Position numbers and translations under genes: made by a program. From Mermis nigrescens (Eukaryota > Nematoda > Enoplea > Mermithida > Mermithidae), in assembly GCA_036768485.1 (NCBI GenBank), contig JAVLUZ010000154.1, forward strand, positions 23,284,685-23,348,684: a DNA stretch of 64,000 bases, read 5' to 3'. This document shows positions 6,955 to 64,000 of this stretch, piece by piece. The notes under the pieces are model-generated. The model saw only the letters and a program-made list of their open reading frames with translations. It was not told where the DNA came from and made no database searches. Within the stretch, counting starts at the first letter, position 1; each line of letters begins with the position of its first letter.

Positions 6955-7209
6955 CTCACGTGGGAGGGGGTTAGGGGGTATGCACCCCCCAGAAGACCGA
7001 ATACCCCCCAGAAACCAAAATACACCCAGAATTCGATTTTTGGAAATTTTTTTTGTTTTTTTCGCAATTTTTGATGCCAATGGATGGTGCTCGATTAGAA
7101 ACGTTTAATAATTGTGTTTTTAAGTCATACAACCATTTTTAAGATCATTTTTGACCTTTGAAAAATCTTGCACCTCCCTCCTCTAGAATTTTGGTGCTGC
7201 CCACCTATG
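6955..7209 (-). mobile_element. Family-A hAT MITE, target GTCTTATG/GTCCTATG
   Basis: The ends are CTCACGTGGG and GCCCACCTATG. The flanking octamers GTCTTATG (6947-6954) and GTCCTATG (7210-7217) differ by one base, as expected for an older insertion. The interior is the reverse complement of the family-A order, with C-rich runs at the left end. Confidence 0.75.
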
Positions 7210-7949
7210 GTCCTATGCATGAACATTTAGAAAAAGGACCGTGTGTGCACAGAACGATCGATTTGTTTTGTATAAAATTTAATTTTATTGAGACAAAGTG
7301 ACCTCTGCTCACAGTTGCACAGAGATTTCTAGTATTTTTTAAAAAAAAGTTTTGTCTATTGTCCCTTTTCGGCCCTAATTTGGCCTTATTTTCATGAAAT
7401 TTTTCATTTCATCACAAGGCTTTTCTGAATCCCATCATGAATAAAATGTCTTCGTTATCTTAACTCTTTAAGTGGACATTAGCAGGAATACGTCCGAATA
7501 ATCATTTTAGTCTTGTCTGTAAATTTTTCCTTTCTAAAGTGATATATTAATCTTATGTCAACTGTACAAGATTAATTCCAAATTTCAATTTTTAAGCTAG
7601 TGCTGCGACTTTTCAAGACTCGATATTTCGCATTATATTCTATTAACCTTTCGCTTGAAAATTTTAAATCTTAAAGGCGAATAGTCAAGCAGATATGCAA
7701 GTTCCGCTCGATCGGCTACCATTCTATAATTCCGAGCTGGAAGGCAGGACAAAAGATCCTATAAACTCACAACATTGTTAGATCCTAAATCAATTTTTCG
7801 TTTTAGCATATGTTTGACTAATGTTTTAGTAGCGGCTAAGAATGTAGGTACCTACTCAATTTTTGCTAACTGATCCAAAAGTGCATATTATGTTTTTAGG
7901 TTATAATCTTGTATAAAATAAGAAATAATGGAAAAACATTTTCAATAAA

Positions 7950-19794: not shown

Positions 19795-20642
19795 AAAATG
19801 GCCGAAAACCATACGTGTAACAGGGTTGGTTCGGGGAATTCCCCATCCACCCAGGGTTGGACGTTTTCCCCACACCCTTACCTCCAATTTCAGAAAATTT
19901 TGACCCACCCTCCCCATTGTTGGCGAAAATTTGCGCTCTGTTGGCTGTTTTTAAGTGCTTTTGCCATTTTTGACATAGAATTAGAGTCCCTGATCCCCCC
20001 TCCTTCTAAAAATGGTCAGGTACCCCTACCCGAAATTTCAAGCCGTTACATGTATGCCGAGGAGCCCCTCCCGAAAATTTTGAGCCGTTGCATGCATGTT
20101 TTATAGTGATAGTTAGTCTATTCACTCTTGCTTACATTCAAAGATACTGTATCACTTCGTGAAATTCTAATAGTTAGCTGCACTTTTGCCACAGTAAAAA
20201 TTAGCTTCAAAAATTATTCGAACGGTTTTCACCAAAAATCGTCTGACAGTGACTTGAGTCTTGTACCCTGAGAGGAGGGTAATAACCCTCCCTCACCCCC
20301 CACCCCCCTTGGGAATGCGTGTTTCCGATCCATGTAGCGAGCATGAGAATTAAAACTTAGTCATCACATGAATAATAAATTGGCACTTTGCTGTATGTAA
20401 TTTGGTGTAACTGGGTACGCGACTGAAGCCATAAGAAAAGTCTATAGGTAAAAAATAGCCTGTGTACTGCAGATGCATTCTAAATAGTTAATATTAAACG
20501 GATATATTAAACTTTTTCAAATTTGATTTTAACCCTCGGCGCCTCGGCACTTTTCAGCTTCGCCCTCGGCGCCGAGGCCGAGGCTCCAAAAAACGCCGAG
20601 AATTGCCGAGGCCGAGGCCTCGGTCCGATCACTGGATGTGAC

Positions 20643-20887
20643 CATAGGTGTGCAGCACCGAAATTCAAGAGGGGGGGGGGTGAAAAAATTTTCAAAGGTC
20701 AAAAAATGGTCTTAAAAGCGGTCGTATGGCGAAAAAACACTATTTTTCGACGTTTCTCATCGAGCACTATCCAATGGCATCAAAAAATCGCTAAAAAGCA
20801 AAAAAAATTTCAAAATTTGAATTCTGGGGGTATTTCAACTTCTGAGGGGGTGCATACCCTCTCAAACCCCCTCCACGCCCATGTGTG
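20643..20887 (+). mobile_element. Family-A hAT MITE (first of a head-to-head pair)
   Basis: The ends CATAGGTGTGCAGC and GCCCATGTGTG sit between GATGTGAC (20635-20642) and GTTGTGAC (20888-20895). The left octamer is the right duplication of the hAT element next door. Interior as in other family-A copies, including a G-run. Confidence 0.8.
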
Positions 20888-20895
20888 GTTGTGAC

Positions 20896-21157
20896 CACAC
20901 CTGGGCGTGGGGGGATTTGGGGGGGTATGCACCCCCCAGAAACCAAAATACCCCCCAGAAATCAAAATACCCCCCCCAGAATTCAATTTTTGAAAAATTT
21001 TTTCCGTTTTTTCGCAATTTTTTGATGCCAATGGATAGTGCTTGATGAGAAGCGTCGAAAAATGGTGTTTTATTGCCCTACCACCATTTTTAAGGCCATT
21101 TTTTGACTTTCAAAAAATCTTGCACCCCCCCCAGAATTTTTTTGCTGCCCACGTATG
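20896..21157 (-). mobile_element. Family-A hAT MITE (second, inverted)
   Basis: The ends CACACCTGGGCG and GCTGCCCACGTATG are flanked exactly by GTTGTGAC (20888-20895 and 21158-21165). It lies in the opposite orientation to the adjacent copy and shares a target octamer with it. Confidence 0.85.
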
Positions 21158-21511
21158 GTTGTGACCCCAGGGGGTAAGGAACCATCAAAATATCTGAAAA
21201 TATCAACATAAACTCATCGTTTAAGTGTCATAATTAGCCATAAAAATTAATCATTAAACCCCTATTCCCTCACGAGGAAACTCGGTTCACCCCTCCCAGA
21301 ACTTTTGACTATGTGCATGAATGATCTTCTTTAATTTTCAAAATCGCTGACATTTAAAGCGCTCTCCTATTCGTTCGCATTTTATGAATGGAATCGCAAT
21401 ATTTTTTCATAAGCATGCAAAATGTTTTTTAGTCATCTCCATTTTATTTTTGTAGTGAAATTCGAATAGCTAGCTCATGCTATATGAATATAAACATGCC
21501 TTCCTTTCCAG

Positions 21512-28043: not shown

Positions 28044-28079
28044 ATTAGAACCAAAGTGAGGCTAGATAATGTTCTTGAC

Positions 28080-28348
28080 CACACCTGGGCGTGGGGGTAT
28101 GCACCCCCCCCCCCGAGAAACCGAAATCCCCCCTCCAGAAATCAGAATACCCCCCACCCCCGGAATTTAATTTTTAAAAATTTTTCCGTTTTTTTCGCAA
28201 TTTTTTGATGCCAATAGATGGTGCTCAATGAGAAACGTCGAAAAATGGTGTTTTTTCGCCATACCACCACTTTTAAGGCCATTTTTGACCTTTGAAAAAT
28301 CTTACCCCCCCCCCCTCCACCCCAGAATTTTCTTGCTGCCCATGTATG
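28080..28348 (-). mobile_element. Family-A hAT MITE, target TTCTTGAC
   Basis: The ends CACACCTGGGCG and GCTGCCCATGTATG are inverted copies. The octamer TTCTTGAC is exact (28072-28079 and 28349-28356). Long C-runs lie near both ends. Confidence 0.85.
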
Positions 28349-28571
28349 TTCTTGACACAGAGTTGAGAAGGATCAGAAAAAATATGCCGAATTAGTTCAT
28401 TGTAAACGGAGGGTTTAAGCTACCTTGTATTTTTACGGTATGAGCTCGCAATTTATGCACGTATAGTGCAACGTGCTTTCCGTGGAATCCCCATTCCCTC
28501 AATTGTATTCATTACAATTTATCAGCAACGCGTTTATTGGTTGCTGCTCGCTATATTGACACTTTTTTTAG

Positions 28572-38900: not shown

Positions 38901-39767
38901 TTTGAGGTTGCTAGCTACAACTGACCTGGTCAGTCATCTTAAAATTGGTTATAACATAAAGTACACAAAAAAATTTTCCGGTGTTGTTTATCTACGTTTT
39001 TGTCTTCTGGCCCGCTCAAAACCGCTCAAATTCGAGCTTGACTTTCAGAATATGTTAATTTTTTCGGCGCTTTGGGCCGAATCATTTATTACCTGCATAA
39101 TTTTCCTTAAGCACAAGGATTAAATACAGAGACGGGAGATGAGAAATTACTCCTGAATTGAATGATGAGAAACCGGTTGCGCACATAGCTTAAATGATGA
39201 ACTTTCTGTATGTCAATATTGAATGTAGTGGAAAATTTTTTAAAATTCATTTTCGCAATTATTCCTCCCCATTGTATAGAGCTCGCCAAGATACGCTCAA
39301 AACTTTATTTTCGCTTATCTCCTAATAGTTCTCGAGATATTTGACTTCAAAATTTCGGACTGTCCCTTCGCCCGAAAATTTTTACCTGAATCCACTAGTT
39401 ATTATAACTTACGATTAATCATTTTTGGAGTTGCAACTTTGCTATGCCTTTCCTGCCTCATGACCGATAGAATTTTCAGCTCGTCAACATTACTCCCGAT
39501 AAGCACCAGAAGGTTTGGGGTCTCGGGTACACAGCATTGACAGTCGAGTCAGCGTAACAAAAGCTCACAATAAAAATGCAGACTTACCCATGTAGGGTAC
39601 TGTCTACAATTTTATTTCATCAATACGCCTGCAAAGTGCATTTTCAACATGAATCAAAAGAAACTTCGTCAAAATATAACCTACCAAATATCGTAAGAAA
39701 TAGGCATTAATACTGAAAACAATTTTTGTCTTTGGGCAGATAACGAAGATGTTTTGTTGTTTTTCCC

Positions 39768-39999
39768 CATAGGTGGGCGGCACCAAAATTCTGGGGGATG
39801 CAATATTTTTCAAAGGTAAAAAAATGGCCTTAAAAATGGTGGTATGGCGAAAAAACAGCATTTTTCAACGTTTCTCATTGAGCACTATCTATTGGAATAA
39901 AAAATTGCGAAAAAAACAAAAAATTTCAAAACTTGAATTCTGGCGGTATTTTGGTTTCTGGGGGGATGTATACCTCCAAACCCCCACGTCCAGGTTATG
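39768..39999 (+). mobile_element. Family-A hAT MITE (no clear target duplication)
   Basis: The start CATAGGTGGGCGGCACC and the end ACGTCCAGGTTATG frame the family-A interior (GGTCAAA-like, ATGGCGAAAAAACAGC, TTTCTCATTGAGCACTATC). The flanking octamers do not match. Confidence 0.7.
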
Positions 40000-40650
40000 C
40001 TTTTCATTCCCCCGCTCCCCCACAAATCAGGTTTAGTTTGATGAACCGAAAGTGTGATTCTTTTTCAATTAAATGTCTATTACTAACTGCTTTGTCAAGT
40101 GTGGATTTAATAAAACATCGTTTTACAATCTGTCAGCAGCGTATTTCATAATTTGTAACTTAGGGCAATCAGAAATCATAACAACTTCCTTTGCATTTTG
40201 TCTGCGACAAATAATGTCTAGTGATCTTTTATTGGTATGACGAAATTTTCGTCGATATCGGAATCATTACTGTTATTTAGCTTTGTAAATATGCGCACAT
40301 TAAGATTAATATCTGATTAGGTAGAACCATATTCTATTTTTGTACGCGTAGACAGCGTCTCAGCATGAAGTTTTATGCAAAAATACGTCGATGGTGCAAG
40401 TGAAACATTTTTATTAATCATGATTATAATTACATTTGGTCGTAAATGCAACATTACAACCTGATGCTTAGCAAAAAACAAGGCAAGACGACTTCAAATG
40501 CCTCATCAGCTATTCCTTTTTCGGCGGCGTCAGCCGCCGATATATATAAACTTCACTTGTCTTATTCCAAATTCAATTTGAACTCCCACTTAACGTATGC
40601 CTTCATAGTTACCGTTCTATGGCTAATTTAGATAGCTTTTTACGAGCTAT

Positions 40651-41638
40651 TTGGGTATGTTGCAGAATAGGTCGAACTTTTCCAACGATTACGTATTGCC
40701 TATGCAGGCATTAGAAACGCATAAGACGACTGGCCATTATGGTCCATTTGCCTACGCAATTGCCGGTTCGGCCGCCTTGACCTTTGACCTCTTCATAATA
40801 ATCGTACACGTTAAACAGAATATTTTATTGAAATCGAACGCTTTGATATTATCATTATGCGTTGGTGACCTTTTGTACGGCGCCGGATTTCTCGGGGCTG
40901 GCGTAACGAGAATTTCGGCCAATCAGTGCGGTCGTTTGTCTCATTGTCCTGCGATAAATATACCGGTTTGGCAGTGTTTCTGGAAATTCTCGGCTTTTTG
41001 GTTCACTGGCGTTCGGCTGCAATCGGCCAGTATCGCATTGATCGGCTTGGATCGGTTTTTGGCTCTAACATTTCCATTGCAATATTACAAGTGTCCGAAA
41101 AGGTCGATGAAACAATGGAGGTGTGTCGGGGTCGCCTTTGCAATGTCCATCTGATCAACCGTTATCATATTTTTAACGTTGGACTGGGCAAAGTCGATTA
41201 ATCGGTTTTTGCTATACCTAACTCTTTCCCGACTCATTCTCATTTGTTGGGTCACTACGGCCTTAATGTGGTGTTTGGTCTTTTTCCTGCCTTTTGTCCA
41301 TCTGTGCTGGGTTCGTGTGTTACGTGAGAGGTCGAGGAGCTACTTCGGATATCGTCACCAGGAGGCAAGTGAAAATCAGCATACGCCTACTATGCATAGC
41401 CGCCAGTGATGTCATTATGGTAACTACCCCGAATGTTTTACTACTTATGCTCTCCTTTTGTCACTTGGATATTGATATGAACGCATTGGATCTCATATCC
41501 GGTTTCCTCATCTGCGTTCGCTGCCTTATTAGCCTGCCGATCAATTTGATTCTAAGCCTAGAGTTTAGGAACGCGTTCTCGGATCTGATCAGATGCAATT
41601 CGGCACGAGTTTTCCCCCAATCCGTTGTTTGCGGATGA
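40651..41638 (+). pseudogene. Rhodopsin-like receptor pseudogene (paralogue of 53119)
   Basis: The first 167 codons align with the intact receptor at 53119: SNALILSLCVGDLLYGAGFL, GVTRIS, CFWKFSAFWFTGVRLQSA and GLDRFLALTFPLQYYKCPKR. A TGA at 41152 then interrupts the fourth membrane segment. The same frame continues as TVIIFLTLDWAKSINRF, and near 41285 a frameshift moves the rest (LSICAGFV, RQVKISIRLLCIAASDVIMV, GFLICVRCLISLPINLIL) into another frame ending at 41638. The copy is clearly derived from the same family but is disabled by one nonsense codon and one frameshift, unless these are sequence errors. Confidence 0.82.
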
Positions 41639-42435: not shown

Positions 42436-42699
42436 TATACGTGGGCAGCAAGAAAATTCTGGGGGAGTGCAAGGTTTTTTGAAGGTCAAAAAATGGCCTT
42501 AAAAATGGTTGTATGGCGAAAAAACACCATTTTTCGACGTTTCTCATCGAGCACTATCCATTGGCATCAAAAAATTGCGAGAAAAACGAAAAAAAATTTC
42601 AAAAAATTGAATTCTGGGGAGGGTGGTATTTTGATTTCTGGGGGGTATTTTGGTTTCTGGGGGGTGCGCATACCCCCAAACCCCTCACGCCCAGGTGTG
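42436..42699 (+). mobile_element. Family-A hAT MITE, target ATTAGGAG
   Basis: The ends TATACGTGGGCAGC and GCCCAGGTGTG. The octamer ATTAGGAG is exact (42428-42435 and 42700-42707), so the insertion is fairly young. Confidence 0.88.
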
Positions 42700-42719
42700 A
42701 TTAGGAGTCTCATGCGAGT

Positions 42720-51310: not shown

Positions 51311-51969
51311 AAACAAGGTAAGGTTGTCTTGTTTAAAAAAGATCATGCTGATGTTTAGAACAATCTTGTTTTCCGCGTTCTTGAACTGTCATTATCGTAG
51401 ATCTTACCGATGCGTTTACTGGCTGATTTAATCAAATCTTGCTAATTAAATGTAGGGTACTAGCAAAGAAAAATGCTACGATGGAACAAAAAGGACGAAT
51501 ATGCTTGGAATTACGGATCATTAAGGACATAAAAAGGAGGGGGACTGAGGCGAGAGTTACCTGTGTATGTCTAAAGTTGTAAGAATCCACTAAAATTAGA
51601 CTCTCCGCTGAAAAAGCAAAAACTCGAAGTATATCCGCGGCTTCTGGAAAAAGCGGGCCTTCACAAGACATTGTTCACTGGCTCAGAAAAAGAGATTTGA
51701 AGTAAGCTTTCATGTGTTTTAATATAATCGATTTGGTTTCTTATCAATATCAAATTTCTCTTTAATATCTAACCAATATTTAGATAATTAATAATAGCTT
51801 CAGAAATGAATCGTGACAAGCACACCATCTCCTTAATCACTTCACCATATCAATTCGTGCCATGCTACCGTAATAATGCACATTAATCGCTTCTTTTCTA
51901 GGAATACACAATTCATGCTATTTTTCTTACGTTGAAGGTGCAACTCCTTTCTGCAGGCCGCATGATTTC

Positions 51970-52218
51970 CACACGTGGGCGTGGGGGGTTGTGGGGGGGG
52001 TATGCAGCCCCCAGAAGTTGGAATACCCCCAGAAATCAAAATACCAGCCCCCCAGAATTCAATTTTTGAAATTTTTGTTGGTTTTTTAGTGATTTTATGA
52101 TGCCATTGAATAGTGCTCGATGAGAAACGTCGAAAAATGTTGTTTTTTCATCAGACCATTTTTTGACCTTTGAAAATTTTTTCACCCCCTCCCAGAATTT
52201 CGGCGCTGCCCACCTATG
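51970..52218 (-). mobile_element. Family-A hAT MITE, target ATGATTTC/ATGATATC
   Basis: The ends CACACGTGGGCG and GCTGCCCACCTATG, with octamers that differ by one base (51962-51969, 52219-52226). Confidence 0.8.
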
Positions 52219-52935: not shown

Positions 52936-53118
52936 GTGAAATATCACATTGGTCAGCTCGATCACGTCGTCTAGACTTAGTATATTTTGTGATAAGTATT
53001 TGCGTTTTTACGTTTGACCTGGCGATCTCTTAATACTAATGCTAATTGTTTTTGCCGGATTTTTTAATTGTTTAGTTCAGAAACAAGTTATTACATTTAC
53101 GACTGCTCGCGTACGAAA

Positions 53119-54054
53119 ATGGCCGACGTCCAATTCATTCGGACAACGGAAATAAATAGCGCATCAGGTTCGCGAGCTTACATTATTACGGGTTCAATCG
53201 TCTTGACCTTTAACCTTCTTATCATTATCGTTCACGCTAAGCGACCGGTTCGATTTAGATCGAATGCTCTTGTACTCGGCTTGTGCACTGCAGACATTTT
53301 GTATTGCTCCGGATTCGTAGGAGCCGGTGTAACGAGGATTTTGGCCTATAATTGCCGACCATGGCCCCAATGTCTCCCGTATAACATACCAGCTTGGCGG
53401 TGTTTTTGGAAATTCTCGGCCCTGTGGTTCACCGGCGTACGGCTACAATCGATTTGCGTCGCTTTGATAAGCTTGGATCGATTTTTGGCCCTAAAATTTC
53501 CAGTCCGATATAGCAAGTGTCCAACGAGGTCATCGAAACAGTGGAATAGCGTCGGAGTCGCTTTTACTCTGTCCATCCTATCGACCCTTATTATATTTTC
53601 TACGCTGGACTGGTCGAAGTTAGTCGATTCATTTTGCTACCCAAACACTTTTCTGACTCACTACCACTCCGTGTACCAATATGCTACAAACATGAGCTTT
53701 AGCCTCGTTTCTTGCGGCTTGTCCATTTGCGCCGGCTGGAATTTTTATAGGAAGAGCAAAGCCATGGCTAGTTCAGTGAACTTTGAACTCGGCGAACAAC
53801 TCAAAATTAGCCTCGGTTTACTCTGCGTCGCCATCTGTGATGTTATTATGGTTGCTGTTCCTAATCTGTTACTGCTGCTATTGTCCTTTACACACTTCAA
53901 CTCTCACGAACAAACCATTAATCTCGCATCCGGTTTTCTGATCTGCGCTTGTTGCCTCGTCAGCTTGCCGATTTATTTGATTTTTAACCGCGACTTTAGA
54001 CTTAATTTTTTTAACTTAGCGAAATGTGGACCAACGCGGGTTTCGCCCTTGTAA
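53119..54054 (+). CDS. Rhodopsin-like chemoreceptor, Srsx-like, single exon
   Basis: The ATG at 53119 (AAAATGG context) is the first real start. Upstream codons of the same open frame include no other ATG. The 311-residue protein has seven hydrophobic segments at about residues 21-42, 50-75, 96-118, 146-164, 187-208, 229-257 and 267-290. LDRFLAL at 119-125 takes the place of the DRY motif after segment 3. Cys95 and Cys173 are candidates for the extracellular disulphide. The pattern LGLCTADILY in segment 2 and the short loops recall nematode Srsx chemosensory receptors. It would act at the plasma membrane through G proteins. The ligand is unknown. A disabled paralogue lies 12 kb upstream. Confidence 0.82.
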   Translation: MADVQFIRTTEINSASGSRAYIITGSIVLTFNLLIIIVHAKRPVRFRSNALVLGLCTADILYCSGFVGAGVTRILAYNCRPWPQCLPYNIPAWRCFWKFSALWFTGVRLQSICVALISLDRFLALKFPVRYSKCPTRSSKQWNSVGVAFTLSILSTLIIFSTLDWSKLVDSFCYPNTFLTHYHSVYQYATNMSFSLVSCGLSICAGWNFYRKSKAMASSVNFELGEQLKISLGLLCVAICDVIMVAVPNLLLLLLSFTHFNSHEQTINLASGFLICACCLVSLPIYLIFNRDFRLNFFNLAKCGPTRVSPL

Positions 54055-54358: not shown

Positions 54359-54366
54359 TACTGGAC

Positions 54367-54618
54367 CATAGGTGGGCGGCTCCAAAGTTCTGGGGGTGGG
54401 GTGCAAGATTTTCTCAAAGTCAAAAAATGGCCTCAAAAATGGTGGTATGGCTGAAAAACACCATTTTTCAACATTTCTCATCGAGCACTATCCATTGGCA
54501 TCAAAAAATTGCGAAAAAAAACAAAAAAAATTCAAAAATTGAATTCTGGAGGGGTATTTTTAATTCTGGGGGGTATTTTGGTTTCCCGGAGGGTAAATAC
54601 CCCCCGCGCCCAAGTACG
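54367..54618 (+). mobile_element. Family-A hAT MITE, target TACTGGAC
   Basis: The ends CATAGGTGGGCGGC and GCCCAAGTACG. The octamer TACTGGAC is exact (54359-54366 and 54619-54626). Confidence 0.87.
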
Positions 54619-55625: not shown

Positions 55626-55795
55626 GACCGGCCGAGCTAACATCGTTTCATTTTCTGCCTGAAAATTTTCAAAAATTTTTCCACTTTGTGTAACCATATT
55701 GTGTTCGTGTGCATTCTTAACATTTGACTGTTCGTGTTTTTTGACTCTATTGTGTTCGTGTGCATATTTTTCTTGGCCGAGATTGGGGTTGTGAC

Positions 55796-56065
55796 CATAC
55801 GTGGGCAGCAAGAAAATTCTGGGGGGAGTGCAAGATTTTTTTGAAGGTCGAAATATGGCCTTAAAAATGGTGGTATGGCGATAAAAACACAATTTTTCGA
55901 CGTTTCTCATCAAGCACTATCCATTGGCATCAAAAAATTGCGAAAAAAACGAAAAAAATTTTCAAAAATTGAATTCTGGGGGGGGGGGTATTTTGATTTT
56001 GGGGGGGGGGGGGGTATTTTTGGTTTCTGGGGGGTGCATACCCCAAACCCCCAAGCCCAGGTGTG
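55796..56065 (+). mobile_element. Family-A hAT MITE in the LTR-element leader, target GTTGTGAC
   Basis: The ends CATACGTGGGCAGC and GCCCAGGTGTG. The octamer GTTGTGAC is exact (55788-55795 and 56066-56073). The G-runs at about 55977-56018 are exceptionally long. Confidence 0.9.
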
Positions 56066-56113: not shown

Positions 56114-58054
56114 ATGCCAGGCAAAAAAACTAGCAGGAAAAATGACCAAAACACCCCAGATAAGTCGCCTAAGCAGGCTAATACTCCTAAATCATCTAGA
56201 AATGTGTCAAATGACTCAGATTCAGATAATAGCGCCAGTGCACAAAATCGTGCAAGCATAGACAGCGTTGTGAATACAACTCAAACGCTAGGTGTCCAAA
56301 CTCAGGACAACAGTGTTGACTCTCCGATAGATAATCAAGTTGCAAACAATGACAATATCACTCTTCGTCAGATTTTGAACAAAACTACGATTCCAAATCC
56401 GCAAAGATCGGTTTCCGACACAAATGTGAATCGGATAGCTGAAAATGGCAATTCAAATAATCTCTTGAATGCGATGTTCAGCGCATATGCAAGATTTGGA
56501 AAATCGGCTTGAACGTATAGCTGTTGAACATGTGCATGCACAGTTGCAAAATGCAAACTCTGCAAACCCTGATTTGCAACCTGTGAGTCAACGTCACTGC
56601 AAATGCGGACCAGCAGCATTTAGCTCGCTTTGCAAATGCTGACTCGGATTCGTGCGTGCAGCTTGCAGCGTCAATGCCAGTCCGTCGTTCGTCTATTCCA
56701 GTGCTTCCTAATCAGCAAATCGCGTCACGTTTATTGCGTCCTACCGTTTCTGTAAACGCTGAGCAGCAACATTTAACTCGTTTTGCAAATGTTGAACTGT
56801 CTCAGCGAGTACAGATTGTTTCGCCAGCCGTTCAGCCGGCCGGCGAACCAAGCTAATCCGTTAAATTCTGAACTACCGCCACTTCATGCGATGCATATTC
56901 CGCCAGAATCAAATTTTTGTGCCAAATACAGGTGCATCGATCCCGCTGGATCAGAACCATACGTGGGCAGCAAGAAAATTCTGGGGGGGGGGTGCAAGAT
57001 TTTTTGAAGGTCAAAAAATGGCCTTAAAAATGGTGGTATGGCGATAAAAACACCATTTTTCGACGTTTCTCATCAAGCACTATCCATTGGCATCAAAAAA
57101 TTGCGAAAAAACGAAAAAAATTTTCAAAAATTGAATTCTGGGGGGGGGGGTATTTTGATTTCTGGGGGGGGGTATTTTGGTTTCTGGGGGGGTGCATACC
57201 CCCCGAAGCCCCACGCCCAGGTGTGATCAGAACCCACCTCAGAATCAACAGAACCGAAGAGTTCACTATCCGGATCAAGCTACTGACTCTCCGCCGGAAA
57301 GCCCCAGGCGTCATAGATCTTCTTCAAGGCGTTCACGGCGTCAACATCGTGACACATCGTCTGATAGCTCAGAGAATACAGGTATTCGATACCTAGCTGA
57401 TTCTATAAATAGAGGTCCATTTTTGCAACAAATTCAGTACACGATAGCCATTAAGAAGGTTTTTCAAGGTGAAAAAACAGATATCTGTGGATTTTTTCAC
57501 AAACTTGAGCGATTAGCAAATGGCTATAGAATTGATGAAAGATCGTGTCTAGATTTGTTGCCATCGTTTTTTGATACCTATACGACTAGATTGTTTCGCT
57601 CCTTACCTAACGACGTTCCGCGAATCTTATGAACTCACGAAACAAGCATTAATTGCAGAGTTTCGACCTATCGACTCAGATACATTGTTTGATAGATTTC
57701 TTGAGCAAAAACAGCACCCATCTGAGTCTGTGAACGCTTATTTTTTGGCGTTACGCGAAGATCTCATTCGAAGCTCAACCAGAAATTCAAGTTGACTCGA
57801 TAGCTTTTGTGAAAATGCTCCGTCATCAGCTCAGAAAAGGGATGAACCCAGATATCGCGAGAAAAGCTTACAAAAGAGCGCCTGAAGCACCGCTTCAAGA
57901 TTTTCTTCATGCTGCGCGTTGCATAGAGTTTGCGAACCTACAGTATGCTTCAGCTAAGCAGCCTACGCCATATTTACCAGCAACTACCGCTGCAGCATCC
58001 AGTAGTATACCCTGCGTCCCTAGGTCCTTATCTTATAGCGTTGTAGTGTTATAA
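56114..58054 (+). pseudogene. LTR-retrotransposon Gag, broken and interrupted by a MITE
   Basis: From ATG 56114 the first segment is a polar, disordered N-terminus (KKTSRKNDQNTPDKSPKQAN). A frameshift near 56480 moves to a helical segment (MQDLENRLERIAVEHVHAQL). After the MITE at 56958, an Arg/Ser-rich linker leads into a capsid-like region (FFHKLERLANGYRIDERSCL, a frameshift near 57600, then FDRFLEQKQHPSESVNAYFL and LREDLIRS, another frame change, then MLRHQLRKGMNPDIARK). This is the Ty3-type retrotransposon gag fold (PF03732-like). No zinc knuckle, protease, RT or integrase follows, so the element is truncated and dead. Confidence 0.78.
56958..57225 (+). mobile_element. Family-A hAT MITE inside gag, target ATCAGAAC
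   Basis: The ends CATACGTGGGCAGC and GCCCAGGTGTG. The octamer ATCAGAAC is exact (56950-56957 and 57226-57233). It is nearly identical to the copy at 55796, which suggests a recent burst. Confidence 0.9.
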
Positions 58055-58059
58055 CATAA

Positions 58060-58455
58060 CCGGAAGCTGCTCCCTGGCCAAAAATCGAGGTTGCGCCAGG
58101 GAGCAAATGGGTTGGGGACCAACCCGTAAGCCTAAGGAGTGCCTGGGGACCACTAGTCAAGGCTAGGGGGTCCTGAAAAGGGGGTTCCTCCGCATTTTAT
58201 CGATTTTTTACAGTAATAGCTGGTTCCGAAACAACTTGTTCCGAAACAGAGGCAATATAAGTTGCCCAGTCCTAGGGAGTATTGTTGTATTTTGTGGGGG
58301 GAGACTAGTGTAAAGTAGTGTAAAGTGTAAAGTAGTGTAAAGCAAGCTTAGGGAAAAAGTTTTTTCCTACAATTTTTAGAATGTTAATGCATCAGCTTCA
58401 TTTTTTACAGTAACAGTGGGTTCGAAACAACTTGTTCCGAAACAACATTGTCAAG
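58060..58455. repeat. Short direct repeats beside the LINE
   Basis: TTTTTACAGTAATAGCTGG and a TTCCGAAACAACTTGTTCCG segment occur at about 58207 and again, slightly changed, at about 58405. A GTGTAAAGTAGTGTAAAG cluster lies at 58308-58345. No gene is present. Confidence 0.5.
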
Positions 58456-58487
<32 letters not shown>

Positions 58488-58490
58488 GTG
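58456..58490. repeat. (TG)n microsatellite at the LINE 3' junction
   Basis: About 17 TG units with one C interruption directly abut the poly-T (poly-A on the minus strand) tail of the LINE. Confidence 0.9.
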
Positions 58491-58669
58491 TTTTTTTTTT
58501 AATTAGAGAAAATCGGTTCGCGCCATGAAGAGAAGGGGCGCTTAACAATAAAGTTAAGAGGGGTTAGTATAAAAATTAATAAACCGTACGAACAAAAATT
58601 ATATACAGTAATACGATAAACGCTGCAAGGGTTAGTAAAAGCACAAAATAGTCACTAAATAGCAATTTT

Positions 58670-61282
58670 TTAAATTTCATTGAGCAACAAATCTTTAATT
58701 TTAGCTGTAATATCATTACGATGAATGCGTTTCCACCAGTGAAAATAATTCTTTATTATTGTAACAAAATATCTCCAAATATCAACTAATTTGTCATTCT
58801 TTTCTAAATCATTTCTTGTCACCCAAATACAAGTATGCGCTAATTGTATAAGGATATTTAAACATTTTTCTAATAAATTATCTGATATGATATACCCAAA
58901 AACTTTATTTTCTACACAAACTTGTAAATTATTTCGCATCAAAATACCAGAAAATTTTTGCCAAAACATTTGAAGACGTTCGCAATCTAATAAGGCATGA
59001 ACATTTGTTTCAGTAAAATTCCTCCCAATAAATAAACAATACTTACAAGAAGACGTAACATTTCTCCATCGACTTAATCGGTCACGAGTTTGTAATGCAT
59101 TATTTAAAAAACAAAAATGTATATCTTTAGCATATCCTTTAATTTCTCTCGGAAAATTCAGCTTAGAGTAAGAAACAAAATTAATTTCATATCCTAAAAA
59201 ATTATTCCATTTATTTAAAAGCTTTTTAATTGCTAAATAAAAAGATTTTTTGATAATATTTGAATAAATGAATTTTGTTGAAATTTTGTTTAAATCATAA
59301 ACCGAACCTTCTAAATTAAAATGAGTCTGATTATATGAAAAATGATATTTTTCTTCCACGTATAAAAGTTCCTTAAAATAAGGCGTAAAATTTTTGAATT
59401 CCAAACACACTGAATCCATTAATTTCAATTGCATATATTTTAGCATAAAATAATCGTACCAAATTTGATTTTCTAGCTTATGTAACTTAAATAAAAACAT
59501 AAGTCTCATAGCATCGACTTTTTTCTCTATATTTTCTATACCAATTCCTCCTGATTTCGCAGAATTTTGAATTATCTCACGTTTAATTTTTGGCTTACGT
59601 GCAGGGTACCATAAAAACTTTTGAACCGCTTTATTCGCTAATTTAATTATCTTATTTGGTGGTCTAATGAATGTTGCGATGTACCACATTTTTGAAAAAT
59701 AATATGTATCGATAAAATTTGCTTTAGACTCTAAAGAAAATTCACAATGCGGTGTTGACTTTATCAACTTATGCAAAACGCTTTCAACACTTTTAAAATT
59801 AGAATTTTCCGCAAAACCTGTCTTATTAAAAATTATTCCATAAATTTTTATTTCATCAACCAGATATTTTTTATAATCTTCAGGAACATTATGATTCTCA
59901 CGAATTATTAAAATTTGTGTCTTTTCTAAATTTAAGGAAGCCCCACTAGCCTCACTAAATTTGTCATATTCTTCAAAAATTTTTTCTACAGAAGCAACAC
60001 TTTTTAGTATAAAATTAGTATCATCAGCATAATTACTCAATTTAATTTCATCATTTATTAATGAAATTCCGCATATATCAGGATTATTTCTAATTTTATT
60101 ACAAAAAAGTTCTGCAACTAATACGTATAAAATTGGTGATAATGGACAACCCTGCCTTATCCCTCTTCCAATTTGAAAACAAGGAGATAAAAAACCATTA
60201 ACTAAAACTGATGAACAAACTTTCCCTTTTTTATATATAGCATTTATGATAGTACGAAATCTTATTGGAAAATTAAAATACTCCAAGGTTTTTTCCAAAT
60301 AATTCCATTCTATTACATCAAAGGCAGATTTCTGATCAACTGATAAAATCAAACCTGAACATTTATTATCATTTATTGCTAATATAGACGAAAATATAGC
60401 ACAAATTCCATCTCTTATATTCCTCGATGGAACTGCGCATATCTGATTAAAATTAACTAATTTAGGAGAAACTACCTTTATTCGATTATACAAAATTTTT
60501 GTAAAAATTTTATAATCAACATTTAATAAAGTAATAGGTCTCCAATTACTTAGTAAAGCTCTATCTCCTTTTCCTTTATATATTAGACTAATTATTCCCT
60601 TATACATTGACGGTGTTAATTCACCTATTACACAAATACTATTAAAAACTTTATATAGGATCGGTATAACTTCATCTAAAAACATTAAGTAAAATTCAGC
60701 AGAAATTCCATCACTACCTGGCGATTTTCCCATTTTTAATCCTTTAACAGCAATTTTAATTTCATCTTCACTTATTTCAGCTTCTAAATTATTATTATCT
60801 TCATTTAACTTAGGGTAATTCTCACAGTCCATAAAATATTTGATAGCATTTTTATTAGTACCAAATTCCTTCATAATAACACTATATTGATTTTTCACTT
60901 CTCTCAGAATTTCAAATTGATCATTAATTACTGAACCATCTAATTTTTTAATGCATGTCATACGCCTAAAAGAAGCCGAAGATTTTTGCGCTTGCTTAGC
61001 CGTTATCATTGTATGCCTATCTAAGATCAAATTTTGATAATGCGTCTTATGAAGACGAGAATTTATTTCAGCTAGTTCATAATCACTCATTACTTTTAAT
61101 TTCTGATTTAACTCTTTCATAAGCATTAAATTATTTGGGAAAAAAGAAAGCTTTTCTTTCAAAAATTCAATGTCTTTTTCTAGAAAAAATCTCACTTTCT
61201 TTTTTCGTCTAGAAACTTCAATACTAATTTGCTTACATTTTTCTGCGATCTTAATTTTCATTGATTCCCATTGTTTTAACAA
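58670..61282 (-). CDS. LINE ORF2, reverse transcriptase and C-terminal zinc finger
   Basis: About 870 codons in this frame, the first without an ATG. RT motifs (residue numbers from 61282): NWRPITLLNVDYKIFTKIL at 246-264, SVDQKSAFD at 314-322 with the first catalytic Asp 316, GIRQGCPLSPILY at 374-386, and YADD at 418-421. The C-terminal zf-RVT site is C746, C749, H762, C767 in SCKYC...HALLDC. The order and the KGKGD-NWRPI form fit the L1/Tx1 group. The protein copies the element's RNA at the nicked target. The frame begins by overlapping the end of the endonuclease frame (stop at 61276), shifted by one base. Confidence 0.9.
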   Translation of the reverse strand: MLKQWESMKIKIAEKCKQISIEVSRRKKKVRFFLEKDIEFLKEKLSFFPNNLMLMKELNQKLKVMSDYELAEINSRLHKTHYQNLILDRHTMITAKQAQKSSASFRRMTCIKKLDGSVINDQFEILREVKNQYSVIMKEFGTNKNAIKYFMDCENYPKLNEDNNNLEAEISEDEIKIAVKGLKMGKSPGSDGISAEFYLMFLDEVIPILYKVFNSICVIGELTPSMYKGIISLIYKGKGDRALLSNWRPITLLNVDYKIFTKILYNRIKVVSPKLVNFNQICAVPSRNIRDGICAIFSSILAINDNKCSGLILSVDQKSAFDVIEWNYLEKTLEYFNFPIRFRTIINAIYKKGKVCSSVLVNGFLSPCFQIGRGIRQGCPLSPILYVLVAELFCNKIRNNPDICGISLINDEIKLSNYADDTNFILKSVASVEKIFEEYDKFSEASGASLNLEKTQILIIRENHNVPEDYKKYLVDEIKIYGIIFNKTGFAENSNFKSVESVLHKLIKSTPHCEFSLESKANFIDTYYFSKMWYIATFIRPPNKIIKLANKAVQKFLWYPARKPKIKREIIQNSAKSGGIGIENIEKKVDAMRLMFLFKLHKLENQIWYDYFMLKYMQLKLMDSVCLEFKNFTPYFKELLYVEEKYHFSYNQTHFNLEGSVYDLNKISTKFIYSNIIKKSFYLAIKKLLNKWNNFLGYEINFVSYSKLNFPREIKGYAKDIHFCFLNNALQTRDRLSRWRNVTSSCKYCLFIGRNFTETNVHALLDCERLQMFWQKFSGILMRNNLQVCVENKVFGYIISDNLLEKCLNILIQLAHTCIWVTRNDLEKNDKLVDIWRYFVTIIKNYFHWWKRIHRNDITAKIKDLLLNEI

Positions 61283-62178
61283 AAAATGATAATTATCTTT
61301 TTCGAAAATACCTCTAAAATATCTAATAACGATTTTTTTAATTCATTGTTTTGTTTCAAAAGTAAAACATTCATCTTCCAAAAAGATGGACCTATTAAAG
61401 CAGATTTATCCGATAAAAAATTAGCAATAACTGCTTTATGTTGCAAAAAACTTATATTAATAACATAATGTCTTATTAGATTTTTCCGCATATAATCGGT
61501 ACAATATATTCTATCTATTCTAGATAAACTATGCTGTGTCGACGTAAAAGTAAAGAATTTTTCCCGCTTATGTTCACAGAGATCTACTACTAAAAAATCC
61601 TGTTTAATTTCATCAAATTCTACTTTCCCTATTTCATTTCTTCCAGTCCATTTAGGCATTCTATCCTTTTCTGAATCTTCTACAAAATTAAAATCACCGG
61701 CAAAAATAATTTCATCGTAATGTTCATATCTCATTAAAATGTTCTTTAAAAATTTAAAAAATTGAACTCTTTCATTTCTTTTAGCAGGAGCATATAATCC
61801 AATTAATGAAAAATCTATTCCAACAATCTTCAAATTAAAAGCAAGACAACGACCGGGAATTTCAAAAAGCTTATCACATTTTTCTATAGAAAATAATTTA
61901 TTTATCAATAAAGTTATACCAGAAAAACGCTGTTCTGCAAAACTATGATAAATTTGGAAATGTTTTTCAAAAACATTATCAAAAAATAAACTTTCTCTTT
62001 TATTATAAAAATGTGTTTCTTGTAAAACAATTAAACTCAAATTTTTGAGTATTTCAAATAAATCAATTATTTTCTGTCTCCTATTCTTGAATCCACCTAC
62101 ATTTAATGTTACTACAGAATACGAGTCAAATTTCTGTTGCTTAATTTTAAAGCTATATAATGACAGAAAAATGTAAAT
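61276..62178 (-). CDS. LINE ORF2, apurinic-type endonuclease part
   Basis: This frame follows the ORF1 stop directly, in the same frame, and is open for 300 codons. It begins with KQQKFDSY, then LNVGGFKN, the usual N-terminal strand and Asn of LINE endonucleases. Further motifs are LQETH (catalytic Glu), FAGDFNFVED (Asp and Asn), SRIDRIYC and the final His in LQHKAV. The enzyme nicks the target DNA to prime reverse transcription. No ATG occurs before the essential Asn and Glu, so initiation at an internal AUG would lose the active site. The frame ends at 61276, about 14 codons past the point where the RT frame begins (a run of five A near 61304). Confidence 0.85.
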   Translation of the reverse strand: MYIFLSLYSFKIKQQKFDSYSVVTLNVGGFKNRRQKIIDLFEILKNLSLIVLQETHFYNKRESLFFDNVFEKHFQIYHSFAEQRFSGITLLINKLFSIEKCDKLFEIPGRCLAFNLKIVGIDFSLIGLYAPAKRNERVQFFKFLKNILMRYEHYDEIIFAGDFNFVEDSEKDRMPKWTGRNEIGKVEFDEIKQDFLVVDLCEHKREKFFTFTSTQHSLSRIDRIYCTDYMRKNLIRHYVINISFLQHKAVIANFLSDKSALIGPSFWKMNVLLLKQNNELKKSLLDILEVFSKKIIIIFC

Positions 62179-63597
62179 CTACGAATTAAGTCTTTTACGA
62201 TTTTCGTCTTCACCGTCCGAAGCGCTATGCGTTCTTTTACTCGTGCTGATAAAATTCGTCGATTCGTTTATTTCTTTTACCTCGTCCAAAAATTCTGATC
62301 TAGACATCATCTCATCTCGTAAATCAGTAAGCATTGACCCCATAACGTTTTCTCCTCTCCAATAAAACGGATTATTAACACGTCGATCAGTTTTTCTCAA
62401 GCCGACGCCCCAAAATAAATCGCTAGGGCTAGCCTCGACTAACAATTTTGGCGACGTTTCGAATAAAAATTTCCGCAAATCTTTATTTTGGTAAAATTTT
62501 GCCTCGTTCGCAATCAAAAGTTTACTTTTCGCGAAATCGCGCCAGCTCGTCAAATCTGGCCAAACGACCTTTTCACCAATTTCCTTAGCGTATCGCGCTG
62601 CTCTATTATTCATTATCCGTTTACATGCTTCGGTATCACCTTGATGTTTCGCTTTTTCACTGAATAAATATTGTTCCGTGGTACTATATTTGTTGTTATC
62701 TACGGTAAAATCGCATTCGTAATGATTCGATAAAACATCGGTTTTAGTATAGAAAGGGAAGATCTTTTCGTCGATGCTCGCTGATTTCGAACCACTGTTT
62801 GTGTTGACGTTAGGGGCAGACAATTTCAATGGCATATTTTTGCTAAATAATGTTTGCGTATCATACTTATTGGATAAAATTTCCGCGAAAGATGGCTTCG
62901 CAACCGCATCTGATTCACGTCGATTTCGCAGAAAAGATGCAGCATTCGCATACGTTTTAATCGCGGGTCTATCAATAGTTTGTGTACAATCCTTCGAAGT
63001 ATGACCTTTGGTCATACAACGTCGACAATAAATGGGCATATTAACGTGCCATAAAGCAATTTTTCGAGCAGTTTTGCATGAATCACTACTGTACCATACA
63101 AAACCCGGAATTTCAATATTTAAATCAGATTCGATAATTACAGATCTCCCACCGTTGCGAATATCCGTATCCGCATAAACAAGCCATCGAAAATCCGATT
63201 TAACAGTTAATTTCAAAGTTTTTTCCAGATAAAAAGATATTTTTCGCGTATCTTCCGTAATAGGCATACTGTATATATAAATTGTCCGATCGCGTCGTAT
63301 CGGTTTCGGATGTTCGACAATGACTCTCACATCGAAAATAAGTAGACCTTCTGTAGCTGCATATTCTCTAGCCGATTCATTTCCAAATATAAGTTTCAAC
63401 GTTTGAGCTGCAGTTCTAAAGATATATAATGGCTTTCTATCAGTCGAATTTGACGCACTTATCGATCGAATAATATCAATCAATTTTCTATCAGTCAATT
63501 TATTACGTTCCAAATTCAAAAAAGCCGATACTCGTGTAGATTCGAAATTTTCGTCTTTGTTATCGATTTGAATATCCGTATTTTCAATATTTTCCAT
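62179..63597 (-). CDS. LINE ORF1: CCHC zinc knuckle fused to a NADAR domain
   Basis: The ATG at 63597 opens 472 residues. The N-terminal 50-180 region resembles an RRM-like ORF1 fold (EHPKPIRRDRTIYIYSMPI). A CCHC knuckle follows at C191, C194, H199, C204 (YCRRCMTKGHTSKDC), which binds nucleic acid. Residues about 279-430 form a NADAR domain (PF08719): FYTKTDVLSNHYECDF, YSTTEQYLFSEKA with Glu308, a conserved Trp352, AKFYQN, LVEASPSDLFWGVGL with Glu388 and Asp393, and NPFYWRGENVMG. These key positions look intact. NADAR proteins, including E. coli YbiA, cleave N-glycosidic bonds and are reported to remove ADP-ribose from guanine in nucleic acid. A role in the element's RNP is inferred. A basic tail (KRTHSASDGEDENRKRL) precedes the UAG. 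Confidence 0.9.
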   Translation of the reverse strand: MENIENTDIQIDNKDENFESTRVSAFLNLERNKLTDRKLIDIIRSISASNSTDRKPLYIFRTAAQTLKLIFGNESAREYAATEGLLIFDVRVIVEHPKPIRRDRTIYIYSMPITEDTRKISFYLEKTLKLTVKSDFRWLVYADTDIRNGGRSVIIESDLNIEIPGFVWYSSDSCKTARKIALWHVNMPIYCRRCMTKGHTSKDCTQTIDRPAIKTYANAASFLRNRRESDAVAKPSFAEILSNKYDTQTLFSKNMPLKLSAPNVNTNSGSKSASIDEKIFPFYTKTDVLSNHYECDFTVDNNKYSTTEQYLFSEKAKHQGDTEACKRIMNNRAARYAKEIGEKVVWPDLTSWRDFAKSKLLIANEAKFYQNKDLRKFLFETSPKLLVEASPSDLFWGVGLRKTDRRVNNPFYWRGENVMGSMLTDLRDEMMSRSEFLDEVKEINESTNFISTSKRTHSASDGEDENRKRLNS

Positions 63598-63604
63598 TAT
63601 ATTA

Positions 63605-63840
63605 AATCAAAATTGACAAAGTTCAACGCGAAATCAAATATGCTTGCACTTATTTTCCAATGTATCCGGCGCATGAAATAGTACACAAACAATTGGAATG
63701 ACGGAAATGTACGCACACACATAAAATTATTGAGCAATAGTCAAAACCGACCGAACAGCGTGTGGTGTCCACAAGCGCCACCCACACAAGCGCCACCTCC
63801 ACAAGCGCCACCAAGGTCCACAAGCGCCACTTAGGTTCAC
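63605..63840 (-). repeat. LINE 5' region with GCGCCAC repeats
   Basis: CCACAAGCGCCAC and close variants occur about four times between 63770 and 63832, just upstream of ORF1. They could be part of the 5' UTR promoter or a short tandem repeat at the insertion site. Confidence 0.45.
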
Positions 63841-64000
63841 TATAGCCATTATAGCAATTTTAGTATGGGGTTCATTAAAGTTACGAAAGAAGTCAGCTAT
63901 TTCGTCATCAGATCGTAGCGATTATTATCTACGCGCAAATTAATTATTTTGCCGGCCTTTGGCCCTTCATAAAACAAAATATTGTCCGAGTAAACTTTAA

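Follow-up and report, generated by a model that had tools for sequence, protein, structure and literature searches.

A 64,000-nucleotide stretch of the genome of the mermithid nematode Mermis nigrescens (contig JAVLUZ010000154.1, positions 23,284,685 to 23,348,684 of the forward strand; hereafter the window) carries a long interspersed nuclear element (LINE) in which the protein of the first open reading frame (ORF1) combines predicted RNA-binding domains with a NADAR domain of the YbiA type. The element has the gene order of a LINE, the domain matches NADAR in both sequence and fold, and its catalytic positions are conserved across relatives, as is the architecture of ORF1. From these sequence features we propose, giving the idea not quite an even chance, that the domain would cut the bond between ribose and base and thereby free guanines of the element RNA, or of its first DNA copy, from ADP-ribose-type adducts. 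The features of the element, in window coordinates, are as follows.

62182..63597, minus strand: ORF1 protein of 472 amino acids (two RRM-like folds, CCHC zinc knuckle, linker and NADAR domain, in that order); Met codon at 63597, stop codon TAG at 62179-62181

63322..63528, minus strand: first RRM-like fold (predicted), ORF1 residues 24-92, from the predicted model

63049..63294, minus strand: second RRM-like fold (predicted), ORF1 residues 102-183, from the predicted model

62980..63036, minus strand: CCHC zinc knuckle, ORF1 residues 188-206, from a Pfam match below the cut-off (14 bits) and invariant residues

62302..62763, minus strand: NADAR domain, ORF1 residues 279-432, from profile, structure match and alignment; active-site positions E308, K315, W352, E388, D393 and W396

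61276..62178, minus strand: endonuclease reading frame (Exo_endo_phos), in the same frame as ORF1 and starting directly past its TAG; first in-frame Met at residue 149

58673..61342, minus strand: reverse transcriptase reading frame (YADD, GCPLSP), in a different frame from the endonuclease

58456..58500, minus strand: likely 3' end of the element, ten A and then, on the sense strand, a CA repeat of 18 units, one of them variant; boundary placed by the sequence and the repeat

Three long minus-strand frames thus lie head to tail. By its sequence the element is a LINE, a non-long terminal repeat (non-LTR) retrotransposon, with a non-LTR-type reverse transcriptase, an apurinic/apyrimidinic-type endonuclease upstream of it and an ORF1 with predicted RNA-binding domains. 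An earlier note on this DNA, made from its letters alone, had named it a LINE, and same-strand Pfam matches bore this out in both the endonuclease frame (PF03372, Exo_endo_phos; E 2e-8) and the reverse transcriptase frame (PF00078, RVT_1; E 8.7e-30). Compared with PDB sequences, the reverse transcriptase matched human LINE-1 ORF2p (E 2.3e-55) and R2-type proteins (E 8.8e-16 or weaker), so that on sequence it is L1-like, an affinity demonstrated to that level only. The endonuclease gave no match to PDB sequences at E 0.1. It contains what we take to be the endonuclease motifs TLN, QET and GDFN, with LQH in this copy at the presumed SDH position. ORF1 is intact in this copy. The endonuclease frame has no in-frame ATG ahead of its first endonuclease motif and overlaps the reverse transcriptase frame at 61276-61342; either ORF2 is damaged here or its translation is unusual (readthrough, re-initiation or frameshift), a choice that one copy cannot decide. 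The autonomy of this copy is doubtful because its endonuclease and reverse transcriptase occupy different frames. This frame change, the in-frame TAG between ORF1 and endonuclease and the two RRM-like folds are details beyond those of the earlier note. On the sense strand the reverse transcriptase stop codon lies approximately 170 bases from the ten-A run, and the CA repeat that follows the run (both within 58456-58500) is either a microsatellite tail or a microsatellite that served as target. No second copy was found within the window by blastn with the element or tblastn with the three proteins, and Rfam at gathering scores matched nowhere in it. A target-site duplication was sought as an exact repeat of at least 9 bases between 58380-58660 and 63598-64000, around a 5' end that is not fixed, and none was found.

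The identity of the NADAR domain rests on several matches. The Pfam NADAR profile PF08719 aligned to ORF1 residues 285-430 over profile positions 9-162 of 163 (E 2.6e-33; 116 bits against a cut-off of 35.1), which rules out chance similarity. NCBIfam TIGR02464, a family of riboflavin-intermediate N-glycosidases, scored 119.4 bits against a curated cut-off of 73.7, the family name being no proof of substrate. Solved NADAR structures were matched by sequence (8bau, E 2e-10; YbiA 2b3w, E 1.6e-7), and the predicted model of the domain has a YbiA-like fold that matches both. All three NADAR motifs quoted in the earlier note, YSTTEQYLF among them, are present in the ORF1 translation. The fusion that it described, of a CCHC knuckle to NADAR, is likewise confirmed, with C191, C194, H199 and C204 of the knuckle invariant in 12 of 12 aligned ORF1s. 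Together with the RRM-like folds, the knuckle makes up the predicted RNA-binding parts of ORF1.

Two protein searches returned 19 different proteins (P0001-P0019), all with a NADAR match; the alignment-based search scored the 7999 candidates sharing most words. Eleven (P0001-P0011; sources jgi and lgn) are full-length relatives of 455-510 amino acids with 32 to 44% identity to ORF1, and by this likeness they probably belong to LINEs. P0017, a protein of 254 amino acids from the mermithid nematode Romanomermis culicivorax, combines a CCHC motif, read from its sequence, with NADAR. A query with the N-terminal part of ORF1 (residues 20-262) found no matches and missed even P0001-P0011, and it therefore says nothing on LINEs without NADAR. 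Mean identity over the 66 pairs of 12 ORF1s was highest for NADAR (52.2%) and the CCHC knuckle (51.8%), followed by the second RRM-like fold (43.1%), the first (36.2%), the tail (30.1%) and the linker (19.5%). Loss of catalytic residues would have counted against the domain; among the relatives from other assemblies, 12 of 12 retain both catalytic glutamates. Judged from these alignments, diverged relatives have held on to NADAR and its catalytic site, a constraint that applies among NADAR-bearing elements and is not a measure of their frequency among LINEs.

Active-site positions were transferred from the 8bau complex, for which the residues contacting ADP-ribose are named in PMC11543638. The mapping used a sequence alignment with chain numbers set at the paper's plus 2, after which all eleven residue types agree. 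E43, K50, K75, W89, E125, D130 and W133 of 8bau correspond to E308, K315, K338, W352, E388, D393 and W396 of ORF1, such that the catalytic Glu, Lys and Glu (E43, K50 and E125) are present as E308, K315 and E388. We compared 13 LINE proteins, namely the 12-row ORF1 alignment and P0017, which is not part of that alignment. Four of the seven columns are invariant glutamate or tryptophan (E43, W89, E125 and W133; 13 of 13 each), K75 is lysine in all 13, K50 is lysine in ten and arginine in three, and D130 is aspartate in 12 and asparagine in one.

The descent of the domain was examined in two trees. The outgroup came from a search of genome contigs with a bacterial-type NADAR alignment, of whose 551 matches 80 loci were kept; a limit of 120 residues was passed by 106 of 107 domain matches, the one lost being viral locus L003. 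In a tree of 56 NADARs, including a random draw of 30 of the 80 loci, the 13 LINE domains fell on one side of a branch (support 95/95) and joined P0019 (100/96). A 41-row tree with 8bau, YbiA and other bacterial rows (15 of the 80 loci, L005 and L007 left out for their long branches) recovered the LINE grouping at 88/95 and the join with P0019 at 99/93, P0019 having a long branch. These trees favour a single NADAR capture within the compared set. Direct capture from bacteria into this LINE is not favoured, as the LINE NADARs adjoin a nematode protein in both. The only named eukaryotic rows outside LINEs were P0019 and, in the 41-row tree, one oomycete fragment, so the origin is not settled. 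P0019, from Meloidogyne javanica, combines NADAR with an IGHMBP2/UPF1-type helicase (weak to the curated helicase family) and is the nearest non-LINE NADAR found; it also lacks both pyrophosphate arginines, with S, C and H at the R79, R93 and Y84 columns. Viral contigs scanned with query A1 gave 7 matching loci and gave no match with the LINE NADAR alignment or with the reverse transcriptase, and the genome contigs of the searched collection gave no match with the LINE NADAR alignment.

In the proposed mechanism, the RRM-like and CCHC parts would hold the element RNA and bring NADAR to it in cis, so that the domain may act as an enzyme inside the RNA-protein particle of the element. The adduct would be ADP-ribose or a close analogue on guanine, and the benefit would be protection from host ADP-ribosyltransferases or toxins. 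According to PMC11833690, the NADARs tested to date take ADP-ribose off guanosine in RNA, and activity on DNA-type oligonucleotides is described in PMC11125620. Several observations weigh against plain hydrolysis of ADP-ribose-guanine by this domain, of which the altered pyrophosphate side of the pocket is the strongest and most testable. R79, Y84, D86 and R93 of 8bau correspond to E342, P347, L349 and A356 of ORF1. We compared these columns with 86 other NADARs (the 80 genome-contig loci, P0012-P0016 and P0018; six viral rows, P0019, 8bau and YbiA were left out). R79, a pyrophosphate contact, is glutamate in 12 LINE proteins and lysine in one, versus R 82, K 3 and Q 1 in the others; R93, a second such contact, is alanine in 13 of 13, versus K 42, R 28, C 10, G 4 and S 2. 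The adenine-stacking Y84 column is variable in the LINE proteins, versus F 75, Y 10 and P 1. W346, one residue before that column and invariant in 12 of 12 ORF1s, might stand in for the lost stacking residue. As the R93 column is neither lysine nor arginine in 16 of the 86, the replacements bear on substrate and not on superfamily membership. On these alignments the ribose-cleaving side is conserved and the pyrophosphate side altered, the substrate may therefore not be plain ADP-ribose-guanine, and a preference unlike that of YbiA or the DarT1 antitoxin is predicted. The removal of ADP-ribose from guanine advanced in the earlier note consequently stands in a weaker form, with the catalytic residues kept but two pyrophosphate-binding residues replaced. 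Relative searches of the kind used here favour NADAR-bearing proteins, and LINEs of the family without the domain could have been missed. Guanine-modifying ADP-ribosyltransferases of animals include pierisin and CARP-1, from butterflies and clams; we know of none in the host, for which no search was made. Nor, to our knowledge, does the restriction of LINE-1 by ZAP (PARP13) involve base ADP-ribosylation. That restriction is described for human LINE-1 in PMC4441479. Although guanosine-ADP-ribose is a substrate of YbiA and phage NADARs in vitro, these proteins are reported not to rescue cells from DarT1 (PMC11125620), and activity in the tube therefore need not equal role. Viral NADARs, moreover, may prefer soluble ADP-ribose derivatives (PMC9503650).

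This last suggestion also lends something to the possibility, which we hold tentatively, that the domain is active as an N-glycosidase but on a different substrate, for example a soluble ADP-ribose derivative, a product of an NAD-type RNA cap or a non-ADP ribosyl compound. A glycosidic centre retained while basic pyrophosphate contacts became glutamate and alanine would fit such a change, and among curated families the best match is TIGR02464, that of riboflavin-intermediate N-glycosidases. Conversely, the domain retains K315, K338 and W352 near the pyrophosphate, lysine 359 (11 of 12) and Trp 346 could compensate for the losses, and nothing links the element to a soluble substrate, ORF1 having predicted RNA-binding folds. 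The altered side of the pocket could also be expected of a catalytically dead leftover or a pure binding module. We think this very unlikely, as both catalytic glutamates and both tryptophans are invariant in 13 of 13 and the domain equals the zinc knuckle in conservation and exceeds the RRM-like folds. A role in host RNA processing, with NADAR serving as an SNA-3-like hook that couples the RNA of the element to the machinery of the spliced leader or of cap binding, seems unlikely to us and is still a serious rival, because SNA-3 is needed for SL1 trans-splicing and is impaired by changes of catalytic-type residues. This nematode protein has three NADAR domains and contacts CBC-ARS2, and the changes that impair it lie in NADAR 2 or 3, although its authors allow that they act via folding (PMC9303266). 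The host of the present element is a nematode and the LINE NADARs group with that of a nematode, P0019, but P0019 is a helicase fusion and not SNA-3, which was absent from the trees. The same fusion is also described in oyster LINEs (PMC12477816), whereas SNA-3 is described as nematode-only (PMC9303266).

We consider it highly improbable that the NADAR protein belongs to an independent gene or a different element abutting a 5'-truncated LINE through insertion or an assembly join. Base composition does shift at the border between ORF1 and endonuclease: ORF1 has a GC content of 0.374 and a CpG observed/expected ratio of 2.04, versus 0.257 and 0.93 in the endonuclease part (61345-62178) and 0.267 and 1.04 in the reverse transcriptase part (58673-61275). 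The background CpG ratio of the window has a mean of 1.04, a standard deviation of 0.19 and a maximum of 1.33 (42 stretches of 1.4 kb before approximately 58,800). The excess spans the whole of ORF1 and not NADAR alone; it could reflect a module swap between elements or speak for chance neighbours, as could the endonuclease frame without an in-frame ATG start. Order, strand and spacing nevertheless fit a single element, with the endonuclease frame directly past the ORF1 stop, and RRM-like folds with a CCHC knuckle are common content of LINE ORF1. Oyster Tx1 LINEs, furthermore, carry NADAR in ORF1 by published description (PMC12477816).

The union of NADAR with a LINE, put forward in the earlier note, is real but already published. 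A 2025 Genome Biology paper (PMC12477816) describes NADAR in Ectocarpus Gypsy elements. Drawing on Repbase, it adds several Tx1 LINEs of oyster with the domain in ORF1, and its authors suggest that retroelement NADAR helps to process the RNA intermediates. Among the titles and abstract openings matched, with subscription journals mostly outside coverage, the fusion was not reported in nematodes. The present element resembles the Pacific oyster Tx1 LINEs in bearing a YbiA-type NADAR in ORF1 and differs in its nematode host, a likeness that rests on the published description and not on sequences (PMC12477816). The Ectocarpus Gypsy elements are also retroelements with a captured YbiA-family NADAR but, unlike this LINE, are LTR elements with NADAR at another position; their NADAR is likely a separate capture, because its blastp matches are almost all bacterial (PMC12477816). 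NADARs in polyproteins of animal positive-strand RNA viruses (PMC9503650) similarly sit alongside polymerase genes in a parasite with an RNA stage, whereas here the domain lies in ORF1 of an integrated LINE. Nematode SNA-3, compared by description, shares the presence of NADAR in a protein of RNA processes but is a host gene with three such domains and a trans-splicing role (PMC9303266). The P. nicotianae NADAR 8bau and E. coli YbiA share the fold and the catalytic-site residues common to NADAR hydrolases; relative to these and to the DarT1-associated NADAR, the LINE domain has two basic pyrophosphate contacts replaced and shares one mobile-element protein with predicted RNA-binding domains. 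Human LINE-1 ORF1 is not known to have NADAR or CCHC, unlike the ORF1 described here with its NADAR, CCHC and two predicted RRM-like folds.

Nematodes are thus likely a second animal group, beside oyster, for the published fusion, and the domain proves to be kept with its catalytic site across diverged elements, with precise positions (E308, E388, E342 and A356) now named. Were the domain active, retroelements would join RNA viruses and phages in encoding an eraser of nucleic-acid ADP-ribosylation, and animal cells would by implication mark retroelement RNA or cDNA. It is a doubtful further step that NADAR has been adapted to the retroelement particle in LINEs of nematodes and their kin, its ribose-cleaving centre fixed and its pyrophosphate contacts changed from Arg to Glu and Arg to Ala, which would amount to cis-acting de-modification of a host-placed anti-transposon base mark not yet described in animals.

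Sequences neighbouring the LINE contained other mobile-element traces. A short way past its 3' end, a plus-strand remnant at 57159-58054 resembles an LTR-retrotransposon gag by eye, in two frames, with no Pfam match in either. A dispersed repeat of approximately 200-290 bp occurs at ten places in both orientations, as follows.

56948-57234, 55794-56065, 54365-54606, 51969-52218, 42437-42704, 39767-39971, 28071-28352, 20632-21167, 6974-7214 and 2097-2339, both strands: copies of the dispersed repeat

The repeat looks like a short non-autonomous transposon; at 20632-21167 it forms an inverted pair, and the copy at 56948-57234 has runs of G. Two Srsx-type chemoreceptor genes, of a family best known from nematodes and thus pointing to a nematode host, are present at 40639-41151 and 53071-54051 (E 7e-10 and 2.1e-6).
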